Source of the DNA: Geobacteraceae bacterium
Lineage (GTDB): Bacteria > Desulfobacterota > Desulfuromonadia > Desulfuromonadales > Geopsychrobacteraceae
Direction of reading: 5' to 3'
DNA length: 11,000 nt
Assembly (NCBI GenBank): GCA_027064785.1
Contig: JAMOPE010000270.1
Coordinates: forward strand, 1 to 11,000
The notes under the pieces were generated by a model. The model did no database searches. It was not told where the DNA came from and saw only the letters and a program-made list of their open reading frames with translations. The translations under genes and the position numbers were made by a program. This document shows, in pieces, positions 1-7,235 of the stretch (positions are counted from its first letter, which is position 1; each line of letters starts with the position of its first letter).

Positions 1-330
1 AGATGACCAGAATGGAAAACGGAATCAGGAAGATGATACCGCCCAGCAGGTTGATCCATGCCTGACCACGGTGAGATAGCAGCGTATAGAAAACATCGAC
101 CCGGACGTGCCCGTCTTCTTTCAGGGCGTAGGCAGCGGCAAGCAGGAACAGTACGGCAAAGATATACTATTCCAGTTCCTGAACCCTGACACTAATTTTC
201 CGCAGAAAGTAGCGGGTGAATACGTCGTAACAGACAACAGAACAAGTAAAGTACTCAACCACGAGATTGCGTGGCCGATCTTGGTGTTGAGCCCGTCGAT
301 TAGACGGATAATCAAATGGATTAGTTTCAT
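1..330 (-). pseudogene. Decayed TRAP transporter small membrane subunit (DctQ family), runs off left edge
   Basis: Read on the minus strand from ATG at 330 (GGAGG ribosome site just upstream), the frame gives an amphipathic start and the first half of a membrane helix, then loses register near 235-237. Shifting by one base restores an unmistakable DctQ sequence: YDVFTRYF, then VRVQELE, then YIFAVLFLLAAAYALKEDG and HVRVDVFY, continuing to base 1. A base missing in TTG(G)TC would explain the shift. A second lesion follows in the restored frame: TAG at 169-167 stands where the family has Trp (ELEW; the intact DctQ at 4381-4920 reads ELEWHIF), a single G-to-A change from TGG. Two independent lesions within about 70 bases point to a dead gene rather than one sequencing error. 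Its dctM partner may lie to the left, outside the window; no dctP lies next to it on the right. Remaining doubt: assembly error. Confidence 0.82.
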
Positions 331-604
331 AATGTGCCCTCCGCTAGGCATAAAATATAAACTCAATGCGTAGCTTGCCGTACACTGGTATGTTGGGTTT
401 TGAGCCAATGACTAAGGAATTATTCTATATAATTATGTTTGATTTTGTGACTAACTTACGACTAAAAATCTTTGCAGTCGGCTGTCTAGTTCGAGTTTTT
501 CCACTGAGTTTGAAGGAGGTACCACTCACAGTAGAATTTTTTGCACCATTTGCCAAAAAACTTTATGCTTGTAATCTACTGATTTTTTCCTTGAGAGCGA
601 TTCT
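331..604. promoter_or_regulatory. Divergent intergenic region between the dctQ remnant and lytS
   Basis: This 274-base AT-rich gap has no convincing gene. It must carry the promoter of the kinase gene. Two arrangements are possible. One uses TTGCAC (541-546), 17 bases, then TATGCT (564-569), downstream of a LytTR-like repeat at 500-528. The other uses a perfect TATAAT at 428-433 that lacks a recognisable -35 at normal distance. On the minus strand an AT-rich stretch around 347-360 could be the -10 area of the decayed dctQ gene. GACTAA occurs three times (410, 449, 460) without clear meaning. Confidence 0.45.
500..528 (+). promoter_or_regulatory. Degenerate LytTR/BtsR-type direct repeat upstream of lytS
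   Basis: TCCACTGA (500-507), 13 bases, ACCACTCA (521-528). The second half fits the BtsR motif ACC(G/A)CT(C/T)A fully; the first matches at 6 of 8 positions. Spacer length is the same as in the perfect site at 3002-3030. Twelve bases after the second half lies a TTG hexamer (541), as at the other site (3043). It may mediate autoregulation of lytSR, or formerly drive the divergent dctQ gene. Confidence 0.45.
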
Positions 605-2302
605 ATGTCTCTGATATTTGAGCTTCTACAACAGACGGCAGTCATTATTGTTGTTGCCTATTTATTCAGCAAATCTCCAGCGATGGATTATTTGTCTGGT
701 GCACGGTTACAGCCGCGGCAAATGCTGGTTCTCTATGTTGTCTTTTCACTGTTTTCTATTTTAGGAACCTATACCGGCTTGCCAATTCAAGGTGCTATAG
801 CCAATACCCGGGCGATCGGAGCGGTTCTTGCCGGGTTGATTGGTGGCCCGATCCTAGGGGTGGCTGTTGGAATAACTGCAGGGTTGCACCGTTTTTCTCT
901 TGGCGGTTTTACTGCCTTTTCATGTGGTATTTCAACCACCGTCGAGGGGTTGATTGGCGGATTGGTTTTTTTCTTCTTAGTCCAGAGAAAAAAACCGGAA
1001 CAGTTGTTTCTGCCCTCGGTTGCTTTTCTGACTACGTTGGTTGCAGAAATACTGCAAATGTCAATTATTCTGTTGCTGGCTAGACCTTTTGGGGACGCTG
1101 TTGCTCTTGTTAAGGTGATTGCGCTGCCGATGATCTGTGCTAACTCAATTGGTGCTGCGCTGTTTATGAGCATGGTTCGGGATCAGAGAAGGATGCGTGA
1201 TAAAGTGGGTGCCCGTTTTTCGGCCAAAGCATTCACAGTTGCAGACCGTACTCTTGGGATTCTCAGCAGAGGGTTTAGTCCTGAAACTGCTCGGGAAATG
1301 GCTGAAGTTATCCGGCAGGAAACAGGGGTTGGCGCTGTTGCCATTACTGATCGGGAGAGAATTCTGGCATTTTCAGGTATCGGTTCGGATCACCATTGTA
1401 CTGGCAATCCGGTCGTCAGTCGCTGGTCAAAGCAGGCACTTGCCGAAAATAAAGTGGTTTTTGCTGACGGATATACGGATCATTTCCAGTGCCCTCTTTC
1501 TTCAGGTTGTCCTCTGAGATCGGCACTGGTTGTTCCTCTAAGATTGGACCAAGAAGTTATTGGCACGATCAGCCTTTATGAACCGAAAACCAAACTGTTT
1601 CTGAATATTAATCGTTCTTTTGGTGAAGGCCTGGCAACTCTCTACTCACATCAATTATTGCGCTCCCGTTATGAAGAGCAAAAATCTCTATTGATTCAAT
1701 CAGAATTGAAACTTCTCCAGGCTCAGGTAAATCCTCATTTTCTATTCAATTCTTTAAATACAATTATGGCGATCGTTCGTAAGGATGCGAATCGGGCCCG
1801 TCAGTTATTGATGCAACTCTCTAATTTTTTTCGTACGAATCTGAAACCTCAAAGTGATATCGTAACTTTGGAAGAGGAACTGAATCATATCAGTGCCTAT
1901 CTTGAAATAGAAAAAGCCCGGTTCGGGGAGCGCTTGACGGTTAACCATGAAATTGACCCGGCCCTGCTTGATTTAAGGATACCGGTTTTTACTCTGCAGC
2001 CTTTGATTGAAAATGCAATTAAGCATGGTATTGCTGATCTGCTGGAGCGCGGGCAGATCTGGATCAGGGTTTATTGTCAGGAAAAATTGATTGTAATTGA
2101 AGTTGAGGATAATGCTGGAAATTATTGTGAATCGCTCAATTCTCAGGGGTTGGGAATTCGATTGGTCGATCGACGGATAAAAAATGTGTACGGCAGCGAG
2201 TATGGATTAACGATTGATTGTGAACCACAGCAAAAAACTCTGGTTCAGGTCAAGTTGCCGTTGGTGAAAGGTGTGGCAAATGATTCGTGCGCTAATTATT
2301 GA
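605..2302 (+). CDS. LytS/BtsS-type sensor histidine kinase
   Basis: Membrane sensor kinase of 565 residues in the usual LytS order. Residues ~5-195 form the 5TM-5TMR_LYT receptor region, with hydrophobic segments and the conserved loop motifs NTRAIG (67-72), HRFSLGGFTAF (95-105) and CGIST (107-111). Residues ~210-345 are a GAF domain with DHH-C (Cys265) and a Cys296-x5-Cys302 pair. Residues ~365-445 are the His_kinase domain, with phosphoacceptor His378 in NPHFLFN. Residues ~450-560 are the ATPase, with Asn470 in the N box (LIENAIKHG), DNAGN and GLGI. Arg69, Arg96, Cys107 and Ser110 match in spacing the residues (Arg72, Arg99, Cys110, Ser113) reported for pyruvate binding by E. coli BtsS. ATG at 605 gives an N-terminus typical of the family; the ribosome site (GAGAG, 593-597) is weak. 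The gene overlaps the regulator gene and is followed by TRAP genes, so it probably senses the imported carboxylate. Confidence 0.92.
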   Translation: MSLIFELLQQTAVIIVVAYLFSKSPAMDYLSGARLQPRQMLVLYVVFSLFSILGTYTGLPIQGAIANTRAIGAVLAGLIGGPILGVAVGITAGLHRFSLGGFTAFSCGISTTVEGLIGGLVFFFLVQRKKPEQLFLPSVAFLTTLVAEILQMSIILLLARPFGDAVALVKVIALPMICANSIGAALFMSMVRDQRRMRDKVGARFSAKAFTVADRTLGILSRGFSPETAREMAEVIRQETGVGAVAITDRERILAFSGIGSDHHCTGNPVVSRWSKQALAENKVVFADGYTDHFQCPLSSGCPLRSALVVPLRLDQEVIGTISLYEPKTKLFLNINRSFGEGLATLYSHQLLRSRYEEQKSLLIQSELKLLQAQVNPHFLFNSLNTIMAIVRKDANRARQLLMQLSNFFRTNLKPQSDIVTLEEELNHISAYLEIEKARFGERLTVNHEIDPALLDLRIPVFTLQPLIENAIKHGIADLLERGQIWIRVYCQEKLIVIEVEDNAGNYCESLNSQGLGIRLVDRRIKNVYGSEYGLTIDCEPQQKTLVQVKLPLVKGVANDSCANY

Positions 2303-2990
2303 TGATGAGCAGCATGCAAGGGAGGAGTTAGAGCACCTTGTTCATGAAACGGGAGCTTTTGAACTTCTTGGCAGCTGTGCGAATGCAATCGATGCTTTGC
2401 GGCGGATTCGGATTGAAAAGCCGGAACTGCTCTTTCTGGATATAGAGATGCCGGTATTGAATGGATTTGAGCTGCTGGCAATGATTGAAGATGAATTAAT
2501 GCCGCATGTGGTTTTCGTGACAGCATATGATGAGCATGCACTCAAAGCGTTTGAAGAAAAAACTCTCGATTATCTTCTTAAGCCGGTCTCGGCCGAGCGA
2601 TTAATGAAAACGGTTAATAAGGTGAGAGAAACTATTCGAAGTGGCAAACTGCCTCAATACCAAGTTGAGTCGTTGCGTTGTATCCCCTGTCAGTTCGCAA
2701 ATAGAGTCAAATTGATTCATATCATTGACGTGGAACACATTTTTTCAGATTTGACTGGTATTCATGTTGTGACATCTGAAGGGCAGTTTTTTACTGAACT
2801 GACTTTGAAAATTCTCGAGGAGCGGACTCCGTTATTACGCTGCCAGCGGCAACACCTCGTTAACGCTGATAAAATTGATGAAATTAGGCTTTTGGACAAC
2901 GGTTTGGCCGAAATAAAAACTTATTTGGGCCACCTTCTTCCCGTCAGTCGTCGTTATCTGCGCCAGCTTAAAGTCCATTTGGTGCTTTGA
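2280..2990 (+). CDS. LytTR-family response regulator (LytR/BtsR-like)
   Basis: Cytoplasmic DNA-binding response regulator of 236 residues, partner of the kinase encoded just upstream. The receiver domain (1-~118) has the acidic pair Asp8-Asp9, phosphorylation site Asp54 in FLDIEMP, Thr81 and Lys101 in LLKP. The LytTR DNA-binding domain occupies ~135-236, with the usual ending around SRRYLRQLK. I prefer ATG at 2280 over GTG at 2271: AAAGGTG (2268-2274) then serves as ribosome site and the protein starts MIRALIIDDE, typical of the family. The coding region then overlaps the kinase gene by 23 bases, which suggests translational coupling. The likely target is the direct repeat just after the gene (3002-3030), in front of dctP. 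Which E. coli counterpart it matches best (BtsR or YpdB) cannot be settled by eye, but the DNA site favours BtsR. Confidence 0.93.
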   Translation: MIRALIIDDEQHAREELEHLVHETGAFELLGSCANAIDALRRIRIEKPELLFLDIEMPVLNGFELLAMIEDELMPHVVFVTAYDEHALKAFEEKTLDYLLKPVSAERLMKTVNKVRETIRSGKLPQYQVESLRCIPCQFANRVKLIHIIDVEHIFSDLTGIHVVTSEGQFFTELTLKILEERTPLLRCQRQHLVNADKIDEIRLLDNGLAEIKTYLGHLLPVSRRYLRQLKVHLVL

Positions 2991-3001
2991 TTCTACTTTT
3001 T

Positions 3002-3030
3002 ACCGCTTAATTGACCTATGCGACCGCTTA
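3002..3030 (+). promoter_or_regulatory. BtsR-type LytTR binding site (perfect direct repeat) upstream of dctP
   Basis: ACCGCTTA (3002-3009), a 13-base spacer, and an identical ACCGCTTA (3023-3030). Both the half-site and the spacer fit the motif described for E. coli BtsR (YehT), ACC(G/A)CT(C/T)A-N13-ACC(G/A)CT(C/T)A. A 21-base repeat period places both halves on one face of the helix, as LytTR dimers require. It lies directly after the LytTR regulator gene and before the transporter operon. Confidence 0.8.
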
Positions 3031-3146
3031 CCTATTCCTCTCTTGGTGTATTCATGTCTGCCAGTTTAGAGTTGCCAAATTGATCATGGGAAGAAGATGT
3101 TTTCCTATTGATACAATACTGTGCTCCGGGGCTTCTTTCGAAATCT

Positions 3147-3168
3147 AACCTAGATGGTTGTTTTTTTT
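3147..3168 (+). terminator. Weak terminator-like or attenuator element in the dctP leader
   Basis: A short stem AACC/GGTT (3147-3150 with 3156-3159, five-base loop) is followed, after one G, by eight T (3161-3168). The stem is too short for a confident intrinsic terminator. It could limit read-through from lytSR or be chance. Confidence 0.22.
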
Positions 3169-3211
3169 GAGTCGCCCTGTAATTTAAAACTATCTTGGAC
3201 GGAGGAAGAGG

Positions 3212-4297
3212 ATGAAAAGATCTATGTTTCGCATGTCAGTTTGTCTCCTAGCAGTATTCTCACTGCTAATGGTCGGAACTTTCACGCCCCAGGCTGAAGC
3301 TGCTCCTAAATATCGCTGGAAGCTGGCGATGACATGGCCAACCAACTTCCCGATTTTTGGTGATGCGGTTGTCAAAATGGCCGACATGGTTAAAGAGATG
3401 TCGAATGGCGAGATGGAAATCCGGATCGATTCTAAGAATAAACATAAAGCCCCCCTTGGTATCCTTGATATGGTTAAGGCCGGTCAGTATCAGATGGGTC
3501 ATTCTGCGTCCTACTACTGGAAGGGCAAGGACATGAACACCCTGTTCTTTTCCACCATGCCCTTCGGGATGATTGCTCCTGAGCAGTATGCCTGGTTCTA
3601 CTATGGCGGTGGTATGGAGTTGATGAAGGAAGTTTATGATAAGCATGGTGTCTACTCCTACCCCGGTGGTAACACCGGCAACCAGATGGGTGGCTGGTTT
3701 CAGAAAGAAATCAATAGTTTAGATGACCTTAATGGTTTGAAAATGCGGATCCCCGGGTTTGCAGGCGAAGTTCTCTCTCAACTTGGTGTTGTTGTCACCA
3801 ACATCCCTCCCGGCGAGCTATACACTGCTCTCGATCGTGGTACTATCGATGCTCTCGAGTGGGTTGGACCGTCTCTTGACCTGAATATGGGTTTCCATAA
3901 AATTGCTCCTTACTACTATACGGGTTGGCATGAGCCTGCAACCGAACTGCAATTTATGGTCAATCAGAAGGCATTTGATAAGTTACCAAAGCACCTGCAA
4001 AAGATTGTTGAAGTTGCCATGGAACTGGCTGCTTATGACATGTATGCGCGATCCTATAATGACAGTGCTGTGAATTTAGAAAAAATCACCAAAGACTATC
4101 CTAATATCAAAATTAAAACCTTCCCGAAAGAAGTTATTGCTGCGATGAAAGCTGCGAATGAGCAGCTGATTGAAAAGTACTCAGCAAAAGATCCAATGTT
4201 TAAGAAAATCCATGATGCACAGACTGCTTACATGAAAAAAGCGCGTCGTTGGACTGAAATCTCTGACTATGCGTATCTCAAAGATAACCTTGAGTAG
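3212..4297 (+). CDS. dctP: TRAP transporter periplasmic substrate-binding protein, TakP/lactate-like
   Basis: Periplasmic binding protein (361 residues) that captures a carboxylate and hands it to the DctQM membrane complex. A signal peptide covers 1-30 (KR near the start, hydrophobic core 10-24, cleavage after AEA). The mature part has the DctP-family fold signatures: YYWKGKD (101-107), PFG (117-119), WFYYGGG (128-134), PGGNTGNQMGGW (151-162), GLKMR (175-179) and EWVGP (216-220). The Arg of GLKMR (Arg179) is the family residue that pairs with the substrate carboxylate. Gln158 and Glu216-Trp217 fall where TakP of Rhodobacter and related lactate-binding proteins hold a metal ion bridged to pyruvate or lactate. 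I therefore infer a 2-oxo or 2-hydroxy monocarboxylate, rather than a C4-dicarboxylate, as ligand. ATG at 3212 has an ideal GGAGG. A terminator-like hairpin follows the gene. Confidence 0.92.
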   Translation: MKRSMFRMSVCLLAVFSLLMVGTFTPQAEAAPKYRWKLAMTWPTNFPIFGDAVVKMADMVKEMSNGEMEIRIDSKNKHKAPLGILDMVKAGQYQMGHSASYYWKGKDMNTLFFSTMPFGMIAPEQYAWFYYGGGMELMKEVYDKHGVYSYPGGNTGNQMGGWFQKEINSLDDLNGLKMRIPGFAGEVLSQLGVVVTNIPPGELYTALDRGTIDALEWVGPSLDLNMGFHKIAPYYYTGWHEPATELQFMVNQKAFDKLPKHLQKIVEVAMELAAYDMYARSYNDSAVNLEKITKDYPNIKIKTFPKEVIAAMKAANEQLIEKYSAKDPMFKKIHDAQTAYMKKARRWTEISDYAYLKDNLE

Positions 4298-4318
4298 AAT
4301 TGATTGATTGTACCTCTA

Positions 4319-4349
4319 GGCTCCCGATTGTTTTTTCGGGAGCCTTTTT
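4319..4349 (+). terminator. Intrinsic terminator or attenuator between dctP and dctQ
   Basis: Nine-base perfect stem GGCTCCCGA (4319-4327) with TCGGGAGCC (4336-4344), eight-base loop, then five T. It sits 22 bases after the dctP stop and before dctQ. No separate promoter for dctQM is evident. Partial termination here would give much more binding protein than membrane subunits, as is usual in TRAP operons. Confidence 0.85.
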
Positions 4350-4380
4350 CTTCTCATCTTTTACTTTCGGCAGGATTATT

Positions 4381-4920
4381 ATGCTGTTTAAAATAGAACG
4401 AGTTATCAACCTTTTTTCCGACATCGTCGGTTATATTGCCGCTGCGTTGATGCTGGTGATGTTGGTCAACGTCTTTTACGATGCGATTATGCGTTATCTT
4501 TTTCGTAGTGGGTCCATTGCTATGCAGGAGTTGGAGTGGCATATTTTTGCTGCGGTTTTTCTCCTTGGTATCTCCTATGCGTTAAAAGAAGAAGGGCATG
4601 TACGTGTCGATATTATCTATGATGGATGTAGTCCAAAATATAAAGCCCTCGTTAATATTGTCGGGACCTTTATCTTTTTAGTTCCACTGGCCGTTTTGAT
4701 TATTAACGGTTCAATCTGGTTTGTCCATGAGGCTTACATCTCAGGGGAGATCAGTGGGGATCCCGGAGGTCTGACTCACAGATATTTGATTAAGTCGGTT
4801 ATTCCGCTCGCTTTTATTTGTCTGATTATTTCTGCTGCCGGATTTGTGTTGCGAAATATCCGACTCTATCGTGGCTTGGAACTACCACCACCTCACGGTA
4901 CAGACAAAGATACCCTCTGA
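4381..4920 (+). CDS. dctQ: TRAP transporter small membrane subunit
   Basis: Inner-membrane DctQ subunit of 179 residues, which pairs with DctM in sodium-driven carboxylate uptake. Four hydrophobic segments are visible at about 14-37, 52-68, 89-109 and 138-158. Family marks are RYLFR (38-42), the ELEW motif (50-53) and YALKEEGHVRVD (66-77). The open frame extends upstream to 4300, but those codons run across the terminator hairpin. ATG at 4381 with AGGA at 4372-4375 gives a normal DctQ N-terminus and is preferred. It shares the ELEW(H/Y)IFA and ALKE(E/D)GHVRVD segments with the broken copy at 1-330, so the two are paralogues of the same subfamily. The DctM gene follows after 57 bases. Confidence 0.92.
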   Translation: MLFKIERVINLFSDIVGYIAAALMLVMLVNVFYDAIMRYLFRSGSIAMQELEWHIFAAVFLLGISYALKEEGHVRVDIIYDGCSPKYKALVNIVGTFIFLVPLAVLIINGSIWFVHEAYISGEISGDPGGLTHRYLIKSVIPLAFICLIISAAGFVLRNIRLYRGLELPPPHGTDKDTL

Positions 4921-4977
4921 TTAAAATCTAGAATTAATAGAGATAATACTCTTGATCAATAAAGGAAACCTGTTGAT

Positions 4978-6276
4978 ATGCTTGGTTTAATAATGTTTGT
5001 TGTCTGCTTGGGGCTGCTCCTGTTTGGATTCCCGGTTGCATTTACATTTGGTGGTGCTGCAGTTGTTTTTGGTCTGTTTGCTGATCCGGGCATGTTTGCT
5101 ATGATGCCGCACCGTATTTGGGCAGTTATGAACAACACCATTCTGATGGCGATACCGCTGTTCATTTTTATGGGGATTATCCTGCAGAAATCCAAGCTGG
5201 CGGAGAGACTGCTTGAGTCGATGGGCTTTCTGTTTGGTGAAGTCCGTGGCGGGATTGCGATTTCGACGATACTGGTCGGGGCACTCTTGGCGGCTTCAAC
5301 CGGAGTTGTTGGTGCAAGTGTTGTTGCTATGGGGGTCATCTCCCTGCCGGTCATGCTGAAATATAATTATGACAAGAAACTCGCCACCGGTTCAATCTGT
5401 GCCGCAGGGACACTTGGTCAAATTATTCCACCATCGATTGTTCTGATTATTCTTGGAGATGTTTTTCAGGTTCCGGTCGGGGATCTGTTTTTGGCTGCTT
5501 TCTGGCCTGGGTTATCTCTTGTTTTATGCTATGTGATTTATATCCTCATCGTTGCCTACTTTAAAAAGGAAATCGCACCCCCCATCCGTTTGGAAGGGGA
5601 AGAGCACGGGACGAAAGCACAGCAGGTCGGCAGAGCACTCAAAGCCATCATCCCCCCCTTGATTCTTATTATTGTTGTCCTTGGTTCTATTTTATTTGGT
5701 GTTGCGACGCCAACTGAATCTTCTGCTGTCGGTGGTGTTGGTGCGATTATTCTGGCTGCAATGTACCAGCAGTTATCATTCAAGATGGTCTGGGATAGTT
5801 CTCTTGAGACGGTTAAAATCACCTCGATGGTTTTTGCTATTCTGGTTGGCGCAACGGCTTTTTCGATGGTGTTTACCTATACCGGTGGTGATTATCTGGT
5901 AGAGGATTTCATGATGGCCCTGCCGGGTGAAAAATGGGGATTCCTGATTCTGTCGATGCTGGCAATTATGGCCCTCGGATTCTTTATCGACTTTGTCGAG
6001 ATTTCATATATTATTGTGCCGATTTTGGCTCCCATTGCCTATAACCTAGGGATTAACCCGGTCTGGTACGCAATTTTAGTGGCGATGAACCTGCAGACGT
6101 CTTTTTTAACCCCACCTTTTGGTTTTAGCTTGTTTTACCTGAAGGGGGTTTCACCTCCTGAAGTCCGTACTGTGGATATTTACCGTGGGGTTGTGCCCTT
6201 TATTGCGATACAGGTTTTTGTTTTGATGATCTTGATCGTCTGGCCTGAATTTTTCGGAATCAGCAGCTCATTTTAA
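4978..6276 (+). CDS. dctM: TRAP transporter large membrane subunit
   Basis: Inner-membrane translocation subunit of 432 residues, close to the usual DctM length. It is hydrophobic throughout, with about a dozen predicted membrane segments. Recognisable DctM sequences include the N-terminal FGFPVAF (16-22), NNTILMAIPLFIFMG (52-66), the loop GGIAISTILVGALLAASTG (91-109), GTLGQIIPPS (144-153) and, near the C-terminus, TSFLTPPFGFSLFYLKG. It couples sodium movement to carboxylate import with DctQ and the binding protein encoded upstream. Start ATG at 4978 is preceded by AAAGGAAA (4961-4968), a slightly long spacing but the only sensible start. It is the last gene of the dctPQM operon. Confidence 0.94.
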   Translation: MLGLIMFVVCLGLLLFGFPVAFTFGGAAVVFGLFADPGMFAMMPHRIWAVMNNTILMAIPLFIFMGIILQKSKLAERLLESMGFLFGEVRGGIAISTILVGALLAASTGVVGASVVAMGVISLPVMLKYNYDKKLATGSICAAGTLGQIIPPSIVLIILGDVFQVPVGDLFLAAFWPGLSLVLCYVIYILIVAYFKKEIAPPIRLEGEEHGTKAQQVGRALKAIIPPLILIIVVLGSILFGVATPTESSAVGGVGAIILAAMYQQLSFKMVWDSSLETVKITSMVFAILVGATAFSMVFTYTGGDYLVEDFMMALPGEKWGFLILSMLAIMALGFFIDFVEISYIIVPILAPIAYNLGINPVWYAILVAMNLQTSFLTPPFGFSLFYLKGVSPPEVRTVDIYRGVVPFIAIQVFVLMILIVWPEFFGISSSF

Positions 6277-6370: not shown

Positions 6371-6532
6371 CTATTCTTCGGTAGTCGGTGCAATACCCCC
6401 TTTTTTTCTTTCTGCCAGTTTTTGCTCAATCATCATCAAACCCCGCTCATCTTCCTGGATTCTTTCAAGTATCTGGCGTGTATTCGCTTCTTCTGTGATC
6501 TGCTCATCTGGAATGCTTTTTAAAATGTGCAT
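6371..6532 (-). pseudogene. Remnant of a ferritin gene (C-terminal part only)
   Basis: On the minus strand an ATG at 6532 opens 53 codons ending in TAG at 6371. The middle of the peptide resembles the C-terminus of the complete ferritin next door. EQITEEAN matches EQIEEEAS, and ERIQEDERGLMMIEQKLAER matches KRIQGDGRGLMMIDQELEKR. By eye 20 of 33 aligned residues agree, with one three-residue gap. An in-frame TGA lies directly before the ATG and no ribosome site is visible. About 125 N-terminal residues, with most diiron ligands, are missing, so it cannot form a four-helix ferritin. It is most likely the leftover of a tandem duplication, with ORF-like appearance retained by chance or recent decay. 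A short expressed peptide is less likely. Confidence 0.7.
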
Positions 6533-6690: not shown

Positions 6691-7191
6691 TCAGGCTGGT
6701 GCAAACGTTCGTTTCTCCAATTCCTGATCGATCATCATCAGGCCGCGTCCATCGCCCTGAATCCGTTTTAGCTTGGCGATGATATGACCGACACTGGCTT
6801 CTTCCTCAATCTGCTCGGTGATAAACCACTGGAGGAAGATCTGAGCCATGTGGTTTTTTTCTTCCTGAGCCAAATCCATCAGGTTGTTAATCCGTGATGT
6901 AACTTCCTGCTCATGTTTTAAAGTCTCTTCAAAAACTTCAAGAACTGAGCTGTACTCATTGCGTGGAGCATCAAGCTGCTTCAACTCAACTTTCCCGCCG
7001 GTTTCACAGACAAAGTTAAACATTTTTTCGGCGTGAGACATTTCTTCCTGAAACTGGATATTCATCCAGTTGGCCATGCCGGTGAGATCTTCCCCCTCAA
7101 AATATGCCTGCATTGCTTTGTAGGTGAATGCTGAATAGTATTCGTATTGAATCTGATCGTTAATAGCGTCAACAAGTTTCTGGCTTAACAT
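6691..7191 (-). CDS. ftn: Ferritin, non-haem iron storage protein
   Basis: Cytoplasmic ferritin of 166 residues, the usual size for bacterial FtnA-type subunits that build a hollow 24-mer and oxidise Fe(II) for storage as a ferric mineral. Using ATG at 7191 (complement of CAT at 7189-7191), the ligands fall at FtnA numbers: Glu17 (YEYYSAF), Glu50 and His53 (EEMSH), Glu94 (KHEQ), and Gln127 and Glu130 (EQIEEE). The ferroxidase centre and the bacterial third iron site therefore look complete. The frame is open ten codons further (ATG 7221), but GGGAG directly before 7191 and the family's start (MLSQKL) decide for the shorter form. The gene is monocistronic: its own promoter at 7237-7266, its own terminator at 6628-6663. 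Confidence 0.95.
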   Translation of the reverse strand: MLSQKLVDAINDQIQYEYYSAFTYKAMQAYFEGEDLTGMANWMNIQFQEEMSHAEKMFNFVCETGGKVELKQLDAPRNEYSSVLEVFEETLKHEQEVTSRINNLMDLAQEEKNHMAQIFLQWFITEQIEEEASVGHIIAKLKRIQGDGRGLMMIDQELEKRTFAPA

Positions 7192-7235
7192 TTCTCTCTC
7201 CCTTGTTTTTCTAAACATCATCTTGTATATGAGAC

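Follow-up and report, generated by a model that had tools for sequence, protein, structure and literature searches.

The 11,000-base stretch analyzed here (the window) is one whole contig (JAMOPE010000270.1) of a draft genome of 2.37 Mb and 468 contigs, assigned to a Geobacteraceae bacterium (GCA_027064785.1). It carries a LytS-type sensor kinase gene and a LytTR-type regulator gene resembling the BtsS/BtsR pair of Escherichia coli, followed by the three genes of a tripartite ATP-independent periplasmic (TRAP) importer with a TakP-type binding protein. We consider it probable that this BtsSR-type system controls the importer and that extracellular pyruvate is both its signal and its cargo. An original prediction, made from this stretch alone, had proposed that a BtsSR-like module drives a TRAP importer, and it is supported by the conservation of the neighborhood, by a DNA site that tracks the regulator gene and by intact ligand pockets. 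The components that it had listed (LytS kinase, LytTR regulator, perfect BtsR-type site and dctP-dctQ-dctM, all on one strand) were recovered by Pfam, NF008677 and a pattern search, and they are arranged as follows:

605..2302, + strand: lytS, BtsS-like histidine kinase with 5TM-5TMR_LYT, GAF and His_kinase (His_kinase/HATPase) domains (Pfam PF07694, PF06580)
2280..2990, + strand: lytR, BtsR-type response regulator with Response_reg and LytTR domains (Pfam domains over 2271-2990; NF008677)
3002..3030, + strand: predicted BtsR-type site, direct repeat ACCGCTTA-N13-ACCGCTTA (pattern search)
3212..4297, + strand: dctP, TakP-type solute-binding protein (PF03480)
4318..4345, + strand: terminator-like hairpin between dctP and dctQ
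4381..4920, + strand: dctQ, small TRAP membrane subunit (PF04290)
4978..6276, + strand: dctM, large TRAP membrane subunit (PF06808; TIGR00786 above cut-off)
500..528, + strand: candidate second BtsR-type site, weak (2 mismatches), 5' of lytS and directed at it

Sensor, DNA site and importer of the window

LytR scored 309.8 bits against the BtsR equivalog of NCBIfam (NF008677, curated cut-off 246) and is 47% identical to E. coli BtsR (111/234); its start is more likely to be the ATG at 2280 than the GTG at 2271, where the open reading frame opens. LytS shares 50% identity with E. coli BtsS (278/557 aligned). PMC10653868 describes R72, R99, C110 and S113 of BtsS as critical for pyruvate binding, gives a pyruvate affinity of about 60 μM and names H382 as the phosphorylated histidine. 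All four pocket residues are conserved in LytS (R69, R96, C107 and S110, respectively), and the phospho-acceptor H382 aligns with H378.

The site at 3002-3030 lies 11 bp 3' of lytR and 181 bp 5' of dctP. It shows 0 mismatches to ACCRCTYA-N13-ACCRCTYA, the search pattern for BtsR sites, and no other perfect match occurs in the draft genome. The btsT promoter of E. coli K-12 reads ACCGCTTA-N13-ACCACTCA, starting 164 bp before btsT. When the 403 bp after lytR in the window were subjected to dinucleotide shuffling, 0/300 shuffles reached even 3 mismatches.

The three TRAP subunit genes are consecutive on one strand (PF03480, PF04290 and PF06808) and form a predicted operon, whose binding protein carries a Sec-like signal (by eye). 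The proposal that this protein is of the TakP type held up, as the residues Y100, Q156, R177, E214, W215 and E240 of TakP, which hold sodium and pyruvate according to PMC1839085, align with Y102, Q158, R179, E216, W217 and E241 of DctP in the 2hzk alignment (6/6 identical). The same six ligands are intact in 79/80 named dctP relatives (the best 80 of 473). The best matches among PDB sequences were 4pet (543 bits) and 5cm6 (528 bits), presumably both pyruvate complexes, followed by 7ug8 and 2hzk (TakP, 243 bits), and the family models were indecisive, with TIGR00787 missed (63.9 vs. 175.05 bits) and NF037995 passed (57.7 vs. 50). The reading as an importer of C4-dicarboxylates, which the generic name DctP would imply, was rejected because all six TakP ligands are present, and it is also opposed by the best PDB matches, which include TakP and a "ketoacid-binding protein". 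The importer would be sodium-coupled, as judged from what is known of the TRAP family and from the cation site of TakP.

The same wiring could also serve another small monocarboxylate (2-oxobutyrate, lactate or glyoxylate) as main cargo or signal. TakP takes a range of 2-oxoacids (PMC1839085), and the authors of PMC10653868 suggest, for lactate, that the specificity of BtsS-type pockets may shift by few changes. Here, however, none of the four BtsS pyruvate residues or of the six TakP ligands is altered, and the Kd of TakP for pyruvate is about 0.26 μM with no binding of alpha-ketoglutarate (PMC1839085), so that we regard this alternative as unlikely, albeit with an appreciable chance of being right.

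Conserved gene order and co-occurrence of site and regulator

BtsR-type regulators (E ≤ 1e-60) were surveyed in 136 genomes of the order, with 20 candidates scored per genome, and were found in at least 31/136 genomes and at least 37 loci. Across 395 genomes of the phylum, with 7 candidates scored per genome, at least 7/395 had such a regulator, the genome of the window among them. The resulting table of 39 loci consists of the 37 order loci (the window and 36 others) and two from the wider phylum, after a weak match in genome G035 (L047, L082) had been dropped. The arrangement lytR-site-dctPQM was present in 10/37 order loci and in 10/31 genomes with BtsR, always with a TakP-type dctP, although in one of them (L065) the end of the contig cuts lytS off. 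The survey of neighborhoods that the original prediction had proposed thus found the arrangement conserved.

Within 2.5 kb after lytR, 11/39 loci have dctP (the ten TakP-type loci and L170, of another type), 1/39 has dctQMP, 15/39 a CstA-family gene, 2/39 a carboxyltransferase gene, 2/39 flavoprotein genes identified by Pfam domains, which we presume to be NfnAB-like, and 8/39 none of these. A site with ≤ 2 mismatches within 403 bp after lytR was detected in 10/11 dctP-linked loci, 0/1 with dctQMP, 6/15 with CstA, 2/2 with carboxyltransferase, 1/2 with NfnAB-like genes and 1/8 of the remainder; the reversed control pattern occurred in 0/39. All ten TakP-type lytR-dctPQM loci (10/10) have the site. 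The eleventh dctP-linked locus, L170 (same phylum, other order), was rejected as a TakP-type case on its ligands (YQREFQ) and its best site (3 mismatches), and it is a lytSR-TRAP linkage of its own, with a different type of DctP. In these 11 loci the real stretches after lytR had 0–2 mismatches in 10/11 (3 in L170), and 300 shuffles per locus gave ≤ 2 mismatches at most once per locus. A chance origin of the site at 3002-3030 was rejected on its uniqueness in the genome, on the shuffles and on its co-occurrence with lytR.

That co-occurrence was examined in the 71 named dctP relatives with ≥ 500 bp upstream (the nine left out of the 80 include L084, which has a 1-mismatch site and is cut before lytR could show). 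The site was present in 7/7 loci with lytR directly upstream and in 0/64 without lytR (Fisher p 7.5e-10, a value that overstates independence as the loci are related). Two genomes of the same genus, G005 (L087/L171) and G009 (L172, where the contig ends inside dctP), have a divergent TRAP adjoining dctP and neither lytSR nor the site. The lytSR-TRAP arrangement is also carried by two named strains, Desulfuromusa kysingii DSM 7343 and Malonomonas rubra DSM 5091 (L089, L090), and is therefore testable there.

A number of results weigh against control of the importer by lytSR. Genome-wide, ≤ 2-mismatch matches to the pattern are fewer than those to the reversed control (10 vs. 23), so that only near-perfect or position-conserved matches count, and a sigma-70-like promoter was looked for between the site and dctP without any being found. 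The coupling of site and linkage is not strict, with 9/15 CstA-linked loci having no site in the 403 bp after lytR (in L067 and L069 one lies further on, just before cstA), and the more distant loci L062, L064 and L065 have a weaker site with 2 mismatches. In L054 (draft genome G032) the first part of dctP (about 4655-5773) is out of frame, through either a genuine break or a fault of the assembly. In a LytS tree of 36 sequences plus E. coli BtsS (L059, L065 and L070 omitted, LytS being absent or short), 8/9 TakP-type loci fall into one clade (100/100) and are thus not independent, L064 has no resolved position and L170 branches elsewhere; by this topology the TRAP linkage arose at least once, possibly two or three times. 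Finally, a close dctP (E ≤ 1e-100) was found in 26/98 relatives, and lytSR adjoins it in only 10.

The last of these counts bears on the alternative that lytSR is a mere neighbor controlling other genes or itself, with dctPQM regulated otherwise. The 16/26 relatives with a close dctP and no adjoining lytSR indicate that the importer exists without the pair, and a PAS-type kinase lies upstream in some lytSR-free Desulfuromonadales copies (L091 tested; others by eye). Against it stand the perfect site directly before dctP, unmatched elsewhere in the genome, and the presence of the site in the named loci exactly when lytR is adjacent, which together make a mere neighborhood very unlikely.

For control by a pyruvate-responsive BtsSR-type pair, the gene order, the site, the conserved pockets and their co-conservation are read directly from the DNA, and from them we infer the following course. 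Extracellular pyruvate would bind the membrane pocket of LytS (R69, R96, C107, S110), LytS would phosphorylate LytR, and LytR would bind both ACCGCTTA repeats at 3002-3030 and activate transcription of dctPQM. DctP would then capture pyruvate, perhaps also other short 2-oxoacids, together with a cation, and DctQM would import the substrate with sodium. The 50 bases 3' of dctP form a strong stem-loop in 11/11 DctP-linked loci (–19.8 to –30.4 kcal/mol, energies computed without a shuffle control; a T run follows in some loci, not all), and in the window the hairpin at 4318-4345 may lower read-through and thereby possibly raise the level of the binding protein above that of the membrane subunits.

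Upstream sites, sensor pockets and target operons

Sites with ≤ 2 mismatches also occur in the 300 bp before lytS, namely in 6/10 DctP-linked loci (7/10 when L055, with 3 mismatches, is counted) vs. 1/25 others, the 35 loci being those that remained after 4/39 with too little sequence before lytS were omitted; both the reversed control and the opposite strand gave 0/35. The window's own match at 500-528 was rejected as significant by itself on the genome-wide control and retained for its conserved position. This weaker site probably allows self-regulation of lytSR.

Beyond it, at the contig edge, lies part of another importer:

about 1..330, – strand: start of a second, divergent TRAP dctQ gene, broken and truncated at the contig end

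This copy contains an in-frame stop codon and changes frame, and a sequencing error is possible. Unbroken divergent dctQ-dctM genes and a second TakP-like dctP (YQREWE, 40–43% identity) are found nearby, beyond lytS, in L052, L053 and L055. It may be supposed that the pair senses pyruvate and drives both flanking TRAP operons equally, the broken copy of the window being a relic, and site-like repeats do lie in the intergenic region between lytS and the divergent TRAP. The ≤ 2-mismatch repeats point at lytS, however, with none on the opposite strand, and they are also present in two loci without a visible divergent TRAP in the stretch covered (L054 and L062); an equal drive of both operons is accordingly given only a small chance.

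Elsewhere in the window, about 6406-6505 (– strand) holds a sequence remnant similar to the 3' end of the ferritin gene that is intact at 6691-7221 (alignment score 59 vs. 41 for the best of 200 shuffles), and two ferritin-like genes stand at the corresponding place in L093 (by eye). An Rfam scan of the window gave no match at gathering score.

The sensor pocket was compared with the genes after lytR throughout the table. The pocket RRCS, as in E. coli, is present in all readable loci followed by dctP (10), dctQ (1) or a CstA-family gene (13). Among these, the CstA-linked sister LytS proteins (13/13 readable) combine that pocket with the family to which the E. coli target of BtsR belongs. The pocket differs in seven loci (RRAA twice, GSQS, SSSL, GLYS, GLYA and RSSS), and in none of them was a dctP, dctQ or CstA-family carrier found within 2.5 kb after lytR, of which L078 covers only 529 bp. 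Two of the seven precede a carboxyltransferase/sodium-pump operon, two NfnAB-like genes and three other genes, and a 0–1-mismatch site is retained in 4/7.

These patterns leave room for a tentative idea, to which we give somewhat less than even weight, that BtsSR in Desulfuromonadales may be a re-targetable cassette in which the site is often kept while operon and sensor pocket change together. Two results speak against it. The seven loci without RRCS fall into about three lineages of the LytS tree, and in four loci with RRCS the 2.5 kb downstream contain no carrier gene (in L080 CstA lies further on, in L169 it is upstream of lytS, L167 is at a contig edge and L060 is unexplained). If true, such a cassette would make undescribed LytS ligands readable from the target operons and offer a way to predict them.

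The individual loci with altered or unreadable pockets are as follows. In L072 (GSQS, G022) and L074 (SSSL, G015) a 0–1-mismatch site stands before the carboxyltransferase gene, and in L072 the gene for a sodium-pump decarboxylase beta subunit comes next, both genes being confirmed by Pfam. L058 (G062) and L061 (G087) have RRAA before the NfnAB-like flavoprotein genes, with a 1-mismatch site in L061 and none in L058. L164 (G487, RSSS) and L070 (G096, pocket not readable) are near glycerate-kinase-like genes (by eye), and L164 has two ACCGCT(C/T)A repeats right after lytR with a spacer of 12 bp instead of 13. L076 (G025, GLYS) has a perfect site after lytR and no known carrier gene within 2.5 kb, and L078 (G034, GLYA) is cut by the contig end.

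Comparison with known systems

With BtsS/BtsR-BtsT of E. coli the locus shares the sensor architecture, the four pyruvate residues, the BtsR equivalog and the direct repeat with a 13-bp spacer. In E. coli the target BtsT, a proton symporter of the CstA family, has its gene elsewhere, whereas here a three-part TRAP operon directly follows lytR, and before E. coli btsS there is no comparable site (best match 6 mismatches), in contrast to the second weak site that precedes lytS here. CstA was above cut-off in 15/98 relatives; none was found in the draft genome of the window, and among the ten lytSR-TRAP genomes, some of them incomplete, only G016 has it, beside a second lytSR pair (L075). The binding protein of TakPQM from Rhodobacter sphaeroides belongs to the same family as DctP, and the six sodium-pyruvate ligands are common to both, while LytS/LytTR control of TakPQM was not found in the papers searched.

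The rhizobial monocarboxylate system MctS/MctR has a sensor unrelated to LytS and a NarL-type regulator. It is comparable in that a MctSR-like kinase and regulator, similar to those of L133, adjoin a close dctPQM homolog in 19/80 named loci (between L130 and L163), whose titles include Glaciecola, Colwellia, Thalassolituus and Sedimenticola, presumably gammaproteobacteria. The scanned examples were closest to MctS and MctR, below the curated cut-offs of those models, and lytR was found in 0/19. In these loci the MctSR-like pair appears to supply the same importer with another sensor of the monocarboxylate type, and, given these neighbors and the PAS-type kinases mentioned above, the importer has been joined to different sensors.

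In Streptococcus mutans LytST controls LrgAB, which reportedly serves pyruvate uptake, so that a LytS-type sensor is likewise linked to a pyruvate carrier of an unrelated family. The same holds for YpdAB-YhjX of E. coli (PMC5552118); unlike the system described here, neither uses a binding-protein-dependent TRAP importer. In Desulfovibrio vulgaris, LytR-type control of cstA has been published, and PMC3333781 places the target carrier directly downstream of the LytR-type regulator DVU0596. That target is CstA and not a TRAP importer, a linkage that forms the sister arrangement among the loci studied here.

The original prediction had held the pairing of LytS/LytTR, TRAP and pyruvate to be seemingly undescribed, and our search of the open-license literature likewise yielded no description, which is weak evidence of absence as no regulon database was covered. 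The parts are of known kinds, and we found no description of a BtsSR-type pair with a TRAP importer. If the proposed control is correct, LytS-type pyruvate control extends to a further kind of carrier, a binding-protein-dependent, ion-coupled importer, and an exchange of the carrier can leave the regulator in place. The affinities of TakP (about 0.26 μM) and BtsS (about 60 μM), from PMC1839085 and PMC10653868, suggest that the pairing could serve the scavenging of scarce pyruvate, and a function is suggested for the many genes annotated as "TRAP dicarboxylate" (473 dctP relatives among the genome contigs). With dctPQM as the downstream genes and no CstA found, the locus would represent a BtsSR-type regulator with another target rather than a BtsSR-BtsT system, its TRAP importer probably doing what BtsT/CstA does in E. 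coli and the sister lineages.

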